Shown here in pieces: positions 910 to 2,913 of a DNA stretch of 24,776 nucleotides (positions within the stretch are counted from its first letter, which is position 1; every line of letters starts with the position of its first letter). The notes beneath the pieces were generated by a model. The model was not told where the DNA came from, did not search any database, and worked only from the letters and a program-made list of their open reading frames with translations. Position numbers and translations under genes: made by a program. Location: positions 1 to 24,776 of the forward strand of contig JABDLH010000014.1 in assembly GCA_013003145.1 (NCBI GenBank), read 5' to 3'. The DNA comes from Flavobacteriaceae bacterium (lineage in GTDB: Bacteria > Bacteroidota > Bacteroidia > Flavobacteriales > Flavobacteriaceae).

Positions 910-1440
910 TTGGATCTGGAAGAACTAATAAACCAATGCAGGAAGGGTAGCAGGCAAGCACAGGAAGCTTTATATAAAAAGTATTCCCCGGTGCTCTATG
1001 GCATCTGCCTGAAATACTCGCGCAATAAAACGGAGGCAGAAGATAACCTGCATGATAGTTTTATTGTCATCTTCGATAAAATTGGTCAGTTCAAATTTAA
1101 AGGATCATTTGAGGGTTGGATGAAACGCATCACGGTGAATACCGTATTGCAGAAATACCGCAAGGAAGTCTATATGAAGGTGGTGAACGAAAATTCGGAA
1201 GCCGAGGAAGATGAACCTGCATACTATGACGAGATCAACCTCCAGACACTACTGGGCTATATACAGGAATTGCCCCACAAATACAGGCTGACCTTTAACC
1301 TGTATGTACTGGATGGATTTACCCACCAGCAGATCAGCGAAAAGCTGGGGACCTCTGCCGGCACCTCCAAATCTAACCTGGCCAGGGCGCGCGCTATTCT
1401 AAAAGAGAAAATCAAAAAAGCGAAGATCAATATCGCTTAA
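910..1440 (+). CDS. ECF-type RNA polymerase sigma factor
   Basis: A 176-residue sigma-70 family factor of the extracytoplasmic-function type. Sigma region 2 covers about residues 5-85: RKGSRQAQEALYKKYSP, then the region 2.2/2.3 segment EAEDNLHDSFIVIFDKI, then FEGWMKRITVNTVLQKYRK. An acidic linker (about 95-110) leads to region 4 (about 113-172), with the helix-turn-helix YVLDGFTHQQISEKLGTSAGTSKSNLARAR. The start codon is TTG at 910: a TGA lies in frame at 892 and no other plausible start precedes the conserved N-terminus. AAGGCGG at 897-903 is a Shine-Dalgarno-like match, unusual in a phylum that mostly lacks them. The next gene starts 12 nt after the stop and encodes an anti-sigma-like membrane protein, so this factor is expected to be held inactive at the membrane and released by an envelope signal. 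The target regulon cannot be read here. Confidence 0.93.
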   Translation: MDLEELINQCRKGSRQAQEALYKKYSPVLYGICLKYSRNKTEAEDNLHDSFIVIFDKIGQFKFKGSFEGWMKRITVNTVLQKYRKEVYMKVVNENSEAEEDEPAYYDEINLQTLLGYIQELPHKYRLTFNLYVLDGFTHQQISEKLGTSAGTSKSNLARARAILKEKIKKAKINIA

Positions 1441-1452
1441 AGCACATGAGTC

Positions 1453-2913
1453 ATGAAGAAAAATAATCTGGATAATTTGTTCCAAGACAGGCTGAAGGAT
1501 TACGAGGAATCCCCTCCGGAAGGGATGTGGGAAAGAATTTCCGGAACCCTGGACCAGCAAAAGAAGAAGAAAAGATTATTCGCGCTTTGGTGGCAATTGG
1601 GGGGAGTGGCTGCCGTACTGGCGCTATTCATCTACCTCGGTCTGAGGCCCGGTAGTACGGATCCCGATCTTATCCTTACCGATACCACAGAACAGGCTCC
1701 CGGGGAACAGCAGGGGGAACAAAATCCCGAACAGCCAACACCGGCTAATGCCGTGGCAGGTTCAGCCCAAGAAACGACCCCTATAACGAATACTCTTGCA
1801 GGGTCCGTTGATCAAGTACAGGAAAATCAATTGAGTGAGATTGACAAGAAAAACCCGAAGGAAAATCGCAATGCTACCCTGGCACGAGCTCAGCAGGACA
1901 TTGCTCAAAGTCCCGGGAAGAAAAACAGGACCGGAGCAGCCCGGGATCCAGAGCGTTCGGTAGCCTTAGTTCCCGTAAATACTGAAAACCGTCGGGAAAA
2001 TAACAAAGCATTAGCCACGAAGGGGGAAGATGATAATGAGCAAAATAAAAATAAATACCAATCGGAACAAAATTCCGGGATCGCTGAAAATCAAAGCGAT
2101 GAAGGCATTAAAGAACAAGAAGAAAAACGCTCCATCTTTGAAGTAGTGGATGCAGATAAAGAAGTATTGGCGCAACAGGACGACAGTCGGAAATGGTCTG
2201 TCGGGCCGCGTGTTGCCCCGGTCTATTTTAATTCTTTCGGCCAGGGCTCTCCCATTCACTCCAGTTTCACTGCCAATTCTAAATCAGGGAGTGTTAACAT
2301 GAGCTACGGGATAGCCGTCTCTTATGATCTCAGTCCCAAACTTAAAATACGTTCCGGCTTGCATAAAGTAGACTACGGCTATGACACCAATGACGTATCC
2401 TTCTCTGCCTCTCCCATTGCAGGGGAACAAACTAAACTGGATCATATCGTTTATAACAGGACCTCCAGGAACCTAGTGGTAAGAAGCGAGGCCGTCACTA
2501 AAGAACAACCATCAGCCGGGTTGGCCGATGTCAGCGCTCAAAACCCGGGGAAATCCGGGCGGATGAACCAGCAATTCGCTTACCTGGAAGTTCCCATGGA
2601 GATCAACTATGTGCTCAGTGATCGCAAACTAGGCGTGGATATCATCGGTGGCATCAGTACCCTCTTCCTGACTGATAACTCGATTATGCTTGAAGCCGAA
2701 GGAAGCCAGACCCTCGTAGGAGATGTCAACAATATCAATAAGCTCAATTTCAGCACTAATATCGGACTCGGGTTCTATTATCGTCTTGCGCCTAGCATCC
2801 AACTGAATATTGACCCGGTATTCAAGTACCAGCTCAATACCTTCTCCGATACTGCAGGTTCCTTTAACCCCTATTCCCTCGGTGTTTATAGTGGGCTGAA
2901 CATCAGGTTCTGA
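1453..2913 (+). CDS. Predicted dual-membrane anti-sigma factor with C-terminal outer-membrane beta-barrel (Dma-like)
   Basis: A 486-residue protein with three visible parts. Residues 1-40 are a charged cytoplasmic segment (LFQDRLKDYEESPPEGMWERI) of the kind found at the N-terminus of Bacteroidota anti-sigma proteins. Residues 43-64 form a single membrane helix after a KKKKR block. Residues 66-240 are a Q/E/N/K/P-rich, probably disordered linker. Residues 246-486 show alternating beta-strand patterns of an OmpA/PorT-type barrel and end in phenylalanine (GLNIRF), the usual barrel end signal. There is no cleavable signal peptide. The gene lies 12 nt after the ECF sigma gene. Established precedent: Dma proteins of Bacteroides thetaiotaomicron span both membranes and control a cognate Das sigma factor that affects vesiculation. 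Assignment to that type is inference from architecture and context. The first ATG at 1446 is out of frame and soon stops; 1453 is the start. The 3' end overlaps the convergent acyltransferase gene. Confidence 0.8.
   Translation: MKKNNLDNLFQDRLKDYEESPPEGMWERISGTLDQQKKKKRLFALWWQLGGVAAVLALFIYLGLRPGSTDPDLILTDTTEQAPGEQQGEQNPEQPTPANAVAGSAQETTPITNTLAGSVDQVQENQLSEIDKKNPKENRNATLARAQQDIAQSPGKKNRTGAARDPERSVALVPVNTENRRENNKALATKGEDDNEQNKNKYQSEQNSGIAENQSDEGIKEQEEKRSIFEVVDADKEVLAQQDDSRKWSVGPRVAPVYFNSFGQGSPIHSSFTANSKSGSVNMSYGIAVSYDLSPKLKIRSGLHKVDYGYDTNDVSFSASPIAGEQTKLDHIVYNRTSRNLVVRSEAVTKEQPSAGLADVSAQNPGKSGRMNQQFAYLEVPMEINYVLSDRKLGVDIIGGISTLFLTDNSIMLEAEGSQTLVGDVNNINKLNFSTNIGLGFYYRLAPSIQLNIDPVFKYQLNTFSDTAGSFNPYSLGVYSGLNIRF

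Follow-up and report, generated by a model that had tools for sequence, protein, structure and literature searches.

A conserved lipoprotein-ECF sigma-barrel operon in Flavobacteriaceae encoding a putative dual-membrane anti-sigma factor

We analyzed a 24,776-nt stretch of Flavobacteriaceae DNA (the window; contig JABDLH010000014.1 of assembly GCA_013003145.1), which comes from a genome that is 68% complete. The window holds a conserved three-gene operon that is spread across most Flavobacteriaceae. On the + strand, a promoter-like site (402-427) is followed by genes for a lipoprotein (451-894), an ECF sigma factor (910-1440) and a barrel protein (1453-2913). The end of a recA-like frame lies upstream on the same strand (97-354), and the barrel gene is followed at its 3' side by a plsC-like gene on the opposite strand and then by a trpS-like gene (all three flanking genes named by eye). 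In each of the 33 loci compared, the window's own among them, matches to the plsC-like and trpS-like genes lie 3' of the barrel gene. The nearest named relatives of the window are two Zeaxanthinibacter genomes, with barrel proteins 87% and 67% identical to that of the window over the whole protein.

The loci used for comparison came from a subset of the 172 genomes that match the barrel protein (see below) and comprised 60 hand-picked regions together with loci returned by searches. Counted by unique barrel, they gave 130 unique loci (drawn from L001-L062, L078-L092 and L105-L164). A full-length barrel protein and at least 600 nt of upstream sequence define the set of 128 loci used for most counts, window included; outside it are L005, at a contig edge, and L033, which has a split frame and was also omitted from alignment A1. 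Alignments A2 and A3 each contained 23 of 32 loci, window included. The 12 weaker loci L093-L104 were tallied apart, with the distant-module loci described below. The split in L033, which comes from Maribacter litopenaei, affects the reading frame of the barrel gene (L033:4001-5470).

The sigma gene (910-1440, + strand) starts with TTG and encodes 176 residues, in which ECF sigma regions 2 and 4 both exceed curated cut-offs (PF04542, PF08281, TIGR02937). The initial annotation had described a sigma gene followed after 12 nt by a gene for a 486-residue protein, and these positions and sizes check out on the sequence. The unusual start is conserved: 116 of the 128 sigma genes have no possible in-frame ATG start (99 with TTG only, 17 with GTG only). 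An in-frame ATG is possible for 117 of 118 lipoprotein genes and for 117 of the 128 genes encoding the barrel protein; for 10 of the latter, the range scanned held no start. A conserved weak non-ATG start may hold the level of the sigma factor below that of its putative anti-sigma factor.

The 486-residue protein (1453-2913, + strand) can be divided into four parts and is a putative anti-sigma factor of the dual-membrane (Dma/Reo) type. Residues 1-42 (1453-1578) form a predicted cytoplasmic, anti-sigma-like module with helices at 4-14 and from 25, modeled with low confidence (pLDDT about 57-64). Residues 43-64 (1579-1644) form an inner-membrane helix according to hydropathy and charge asymmetry (helix 25-63 in the model), so that the helix assigned to this segment by the initial annotation stands, as does the C-terminal Phe. 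Residues 65-247 (1645-2193) are modeled as a periplasmic tether that is disordered apart from a short helix ahead of the barrel (228-241); pLDDT is below 50 over residues 64-226. Residues 248-486 (2194-2910), ending in Phe, are predicted to form an outer-membrane barrel.

The predicted structure and fold matches agree on eight strands with an OmpA/OmpW-like arrangement. The initial annotation had placed a barrel in the C-terminal half and had named structure prediction as the check, and the prediction bears this out; a globular periplasmic domain in its place is rejected on the predicted structure and the fold matches. The Pfam family OMP_b-brl (PF13505) scores 18.3 bits on the protein, under its 28.7-bit gathering cut-off, although the fold predicted for the protein remains a barrel. 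When solved structures were searched by sequence with the barrel protein, no meaningful match came back. The barrel is the best-conserved part of the protein, with a mean identity to the window of 59% compared with 13% over residues 65-224, and its outer loops 1, 3 and 4 are conserved whereas loop 2 is variable.

The tether has ~182 residues in the window (residues 66-247), and over 32 homologues its length varies only between 175 and 230 residues although its sequence is lost. Such a constant length would suit a mechanical gauge, in which swelling of the envelope or parting of the membranes pulls the tether and the tension frees the sigma factor. A disordered chain of 175 residues, however, stretches far past the usual width of the periplasm, so a tether of this length should be slack, which makes a mechanical gauge improbable.

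Of the 199 Flavobacteriaceae genomes sampled, 172 match the barrel-protein profile, corresponding to 171 of 198 genera; G030 and G111 match weakly, and the other 170 fall below E 1e-40. The system is thus spread through the family, so that the 'marine-flavobacterial' wording of the initial annotation finds no support and a marine-specific system is rejected. Single proteins that cross the entire envelope have been investigated in a small number of gut Bacteroidales; here the design appears in most of the sampled members of this family. Nineteen of 20 barrel-negative genomes listed, from 27 in total, are 1.6-2.7 Mb in size. Across the phylum, the profile matches 59 of 296 genomes, and 37 of 43 match rows outside Flavobacteriaceae start no later than profile position 18 and hence in the N-terminal module. 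In every one of the 128 full-length unique loci a sigma gene lies directly upstream on the same strand. The search for homologues suggested with the initial annotation therefore finds the sigma-barrel pairing kept, and none of these 128 homologues lacks an adjacent sigma gene.

To examine the N-terminal module in more distant proteins we took 49 weaker loci, inside and outside the family, from the phylum-search matches. One of these (L094) has no N-terminal match; each of the 48 that hold the module has an adjacent ECF sigma gene (L196 is a weak member, with a module E value of 1.1e-3 and a sigma score of 28 bits). The barrel was detected at E ≤ 1e-3 in 13 of these loci, weakly in three, and was undetected in 32 (L100, L103, L169-L171, L173-L179, L182, L184-L188, L190-L198, L200-L203, L205). 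The module rather than the barrel thus tracks the sigma gene. Since the N-terminus accompanies the sigma factor whatever it is fused to, it offers the best sequence evidence for the sigma-holding part, and residues 1-42 would be the segment that holds the sigma factor. Mean-field covariation over 128 pairs gave a top z of 5.9 between the sigma factor and residues 1-42, the same as in the barrel control; pairs above z 4 made up 0.06% for residues 1-42 and 0.19% for the sigma-barrel control, at an alignment depth that is too low. Within the sigma factor itself, short-range pairs made up only 7 of the top 40, a further sign of insufficient depth. Where the barrel is undetected (32 of 48), module and helix stand beside an ECF sigma gene in proteins of ~180-900 residues, which look like a modular anti-sigma group.

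The same loci bear on whether the two halves of the window's protein act together. If the barrel and the anti-sigma half were separated soon after synthesis, the N-terminal fragment would act alone, and both the polar, unconserved tether and the module loci with an undetected (32 of 48) or weak (three more) barrel are compatible with such early cleavage. The fusion is nevertheless kept in all 128 full-length homologues (a set selected for full length), only one of the 130 unique loci, that with the split frame, is not full length, and the barrel is conserved better than any other part. We regard early cleavage as very unlikely.

The outer-membrane state is usually reported to the cytoplasm through relay proteins. 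In the FecI-FecR-FecA system it reaches a sigma factor through three proteins in relay. The window operon resembles this system in signaling from the outer membrane to a sigma factor, but differs in that neither a FecR nor a TonB-receptor domain was found in the Pfam scan of its proteins; for the 486-residue protein, nothing besides OMP_b-brl appeared up to E 1. Some FecR-type sigma regulators act as pro-sigma factors, a precedent for a sigma factor that needs the barrel protein for activity instead of being restrained by it. Little probability attaches to this arrangement here: the Pfam scan found no FecR domain, and in the relatives described, loss of the barrel protein switches the response on (PMC9308784, PMC13088901).

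The closest counterparts by published description are the dual-membrane systems of Bacteroidales. The Dma family, said to occur across Bacteroidota, is described as having an N-terminal sigma-binding domain, a helix, a disordered tether, a C-terminal barrel and an adjacent ECF21 sigma gene (PMC13088901). Its members are characterized by a presence in both membranes and by a rise in sigma activity and vesiculation when they are lost. The window protein has one helix after its N-terminus, a long disordered tether, a predicted C-terminal barrel and an adjacent ECF sigma gene. It shares this layout with Das1/2-Dma1/2 of Bacteroides thetaiotaomicron, whereas the flavobacterial operon, as compared with the description in that source, is led by its own lipoprotein, has another promoter sequence and starts its sigma gene with a non-ATG codon (PMC13088901). 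The likeness to Das-Dma is drawn from the published description and from the proteins of family f11 (below). A sigma/barrel pair of the same design in P. vulgatus is described as answering envelope damage, with a 33-fold rise of the sigma gene (PMC9308784), and EcfO-Reo, again of this design, reacts to envelope damage, EcfO driving surface NigD lipoproteins (PMC13114119). EcfO-Reo of Bacteroides fragilis and Phocaeicola vulgatus thus shares the design; its sigma gene is induced with its own response and its regulon includes surface lipoproteins. There, by these accounts, NigD genes are members of the regulon, while the flavobacterial operon has a smaller lipoprotein built in (PMC9308784, PMC13114119).

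We searched 31 genomes of family f11 with the sigma profile, obtaining matches down to E 1.2e-42, and read 20 of the best sigma genes downstream. In 14 cases a separate protein of 350-470 residues comes next, with one helix near its N-terminus; at E ≤ 1e-3, in this small set of open reading frames, the whole-protein profile matches 12 of the 14 and the barrel part alone matches eight. The remaining six loci comprise two fused sigma-barrel frames, one truncated barrel frame and three without a clear partner. Profile-profile alignment (hhalign) of the window family with 13 f11 proteins, selected by sigma adjacency and not by likeness, gave, in single comparisons, Prob 98.9 and E 1.6e-17 end to end, 2.8e-10 for the N-terminus alone and 4.3e-11 for the barrel alone. 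Omitted from this alignment were the two fusions (L250, L251), the locus L248, whose partner came to light only afterwards, and L244, L246, L247 and L255.

The two fusions (L250, 592 aa; L251, 567 aa) match the barrel profile at E 5.8e-8 and 1.4e-4. They are like Dma3, the type described as carrying sigma factor and barrel in one protein (PMC13088901); the genes in the window are separate. Five more f11 sigma matches lie in open reading frames of 553-616 residues. Two f11 genomes carry three NigD_C genes each, among just five of the 296 sampled genomes that carry any; a Bacteroides ihuae genome, the positive control of this search, was matched. Because its genomes carry NigD_C genes, f11 is taken as Bacteroidales, and it is through f11 so assigned that common descent with the Bacteroidales Dma members is suggested. 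In both NigD-rich f11 genomes a sigma gene adjoins a NigD gene that runs in the opposite direction. The Dma-type reading of the initial annotation is partly supported: it keeps its architecture, its constant pairing with an ECF sigma gene and its predicted barrel, gains the homology to f11, and loses the word 'marine'.

The site upstream of the operon is a predicted autoregulatory ECF promoter (402-427, + strand), with a -35 element GCAACC (402-407), a 15-nt spacer and a -10 element CATCT (423-427). Allowing up to one mismatch, it is the only match in the window, where 0.12 are expected. The pattern GCAACC-N15-C[AG]TCT precedes the lipoprotein gene in all 32 loci first inspected. Of 124 unique loci, 100 carry it in the 400 nt before the operon, where the reversed pattern and a shuffle each gave 0, and the other 24 lack its exact form; three of the 124 loci have a 14-nt spacer, and no other spacing between 8 and 24 was found. 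The operon's own sigma factor presumably uses this promoter. In f11, GCAGTA-N15-[CT]ATTT precedes 9 of the 20 sigma genes (0.00 in a shuffle), a motif first seen by eye in these same 20 loci. The f11 and flavobacterial promoters have the same 15-nt spacing and related letters, which is compatible with one sigma type that has split into two lineages, the sigma factor of each transcribing its own gene. In the 46 more distant module loci examined, neither form turned up. In Flavobacterium psychrophilum, an ECF sigma/anti-sigma pair is apparently transcribed from promoters of its own class, SM6, whose -10 is termed a CGT box and whose regulon is said to hold secretion-system genes (PMC9723704). 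Compared by that description, the pair may or may not be the same system as the window operon.

The first gene of the operon (451-894, + strand) encodes a 147-residue lipoprotein with its lipid Cys at residue 21 and a predicted eight-strand beta sandwich (pLDDT 86.3). The lipoprotein gene precedes the sigma gene in 118 of the 128 unique loci. Among the 199 Flavobacteriaceae genomes it occurs in 145 of 172 barrel-positive but only 1 of 27 barrel-negative genomes, and the lipoprotein thus belongs to the sigma-barrel system. G190 is the one barrel-negative genome that still carries it. After the lipid Cys comes an acidic consensus, D/S-I/L-D-D-D, which resembles the lipoprotein export signals described for B. 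fragilis (SDDDD) and F. johnsoniae (SDDFE), although the acidic run starts later than theirs as reported (PMC5080379).

The predicted fold may resemble the NigD C-terminal domain, weakly and not uniformly. By sequence the lipoprotein is rejected as a NigD: the NigD family is absent from the 10 Pfam families matched by 23 lipoprotein orthologues at E up to 10, and hhalign of the mature domain with five proteins (two with NigD_C matches, three named NigD by eye) gave E 0.31. An hhalign value of 1.9e-6 against a mixed set was discarded, as only signal peptides had aligned and the set included non-NigD proteins. The NigD structures 4pqx, 4j8q and 3k6o were absent among the 50 matches listed for the lipoprotein (VIA list), and NigD_C was not found in the window's genome or in any Flavobacteriaceae genome among the 296 searched.

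A rival reading is that a ligand is sensed at the surface: lipoprotein and conserved barrel loops would form a receptor in which binding or loss of the lipoprotein triggers release of the sigma factor. The near-exclusive occurrence of the lipoprotein with the barrel, the conservation of three of four outer loops and the likeness to published export signals would all agree with a receptor (PMC5080379). We nonetheless think it unlikely, as barrel and sigma genes are present with the lipoprotein undetected in 10 of 128 loci, the acidic run begins later than in the signals described, and first place in a probably autoregulated operon suits an effector equally well. Most probably the lipoprotein is either an effector of the response at the surface or in the outer membrane, the role proposed for NigD, or else a partner of the barrel. 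In either role it may shed light on the function of NigD-type proteins.

We consider it likely that the operon is a flavobacterial EcfO-Reo/Das-Dma switch, in which a protein anchored in two membranes holds an ECF sigma factor and frees it upon an outer-membrane problem. The computed basis of this reading is the gene order, the architecture, the homology, the conserved promoter and the third gene, from which we infer the holding, the cleavage, the trigger and the loop. In the unstressed cell, residues 1-42 would keep the sigma factor at the inner membrane, with the barrel embedded in the outer one. A failure of barrel insertion, or a disturbance of the surrounding outer membrane, would probably lead to cleavage of the tether or anchor and free the sigma factor. 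Such a failure or disturbance, read out by cleavage of the tether, is the likeliest trigger, though we put it slightly below even odds; cleavage is favored as the readout because a tether that is disordered and unconserved would transmit a change of shape poorly but offers proteases an easy target. The freed sigma factor would then transcribe its own operon from 402-427, giving the lipoprotein first and then more sigma factor from its presumably weak non-ATG start. New barrel protein, made last, would shut the system off, so that the response amplifies and then terminates itself. With one protein apparently set in both membranes, the bacterium is probably able to sense trouble at its outer surface directly.

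The dual-membrane anti-sigma design is known; added here are its family-wide spread, the fixed promoter and the third gene. We found no description of the three-gene operon among the openly licensed papers that our searches listed, and members from flavobacteria may already be included in the founding PNAS paper of 2024. A bolder proposal, which we hold to be rather unlikely, is that the operon is an outer-membrane alarm on one transcript, with the NigD-like lipoprotein serving both as first product and as the ligand that docks to the conserved barrel loops and recloses the switch. If this were true, the scattered nigD regulons of gut Bacteroides would derive from, or parallel, a compact unit of lipoprotein, sigma factor and barrel, and most Flavobacteriaceae would have their envelope guarded in the same way.

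The fixed promoter provides an immediate reporter for finding the signal. A scan of 10 genomes with the exact promoter gave 23 matches, compared with three for the reversed pattern, and eight of the 10 genomes have the site at the operon. Among the genes behind the other matches are a SusD-like gene, genes for small lipoproteins and the divergent neighbor of the operon (names by eye); because the matches are too few, we make no claim about a regulon. The divergent neighbor, whose product is rhodanese-like or U32-peptidase-like by eye, has the same motif in four of the 10 genomes (L266/L273, L267/L274, L268/L275, L260). In two genomes of the Zeaxanthinibacter group, including that of the window, the exact motif lies 132 nt upstream of a SusD-like gene named by eye (L271, L277).
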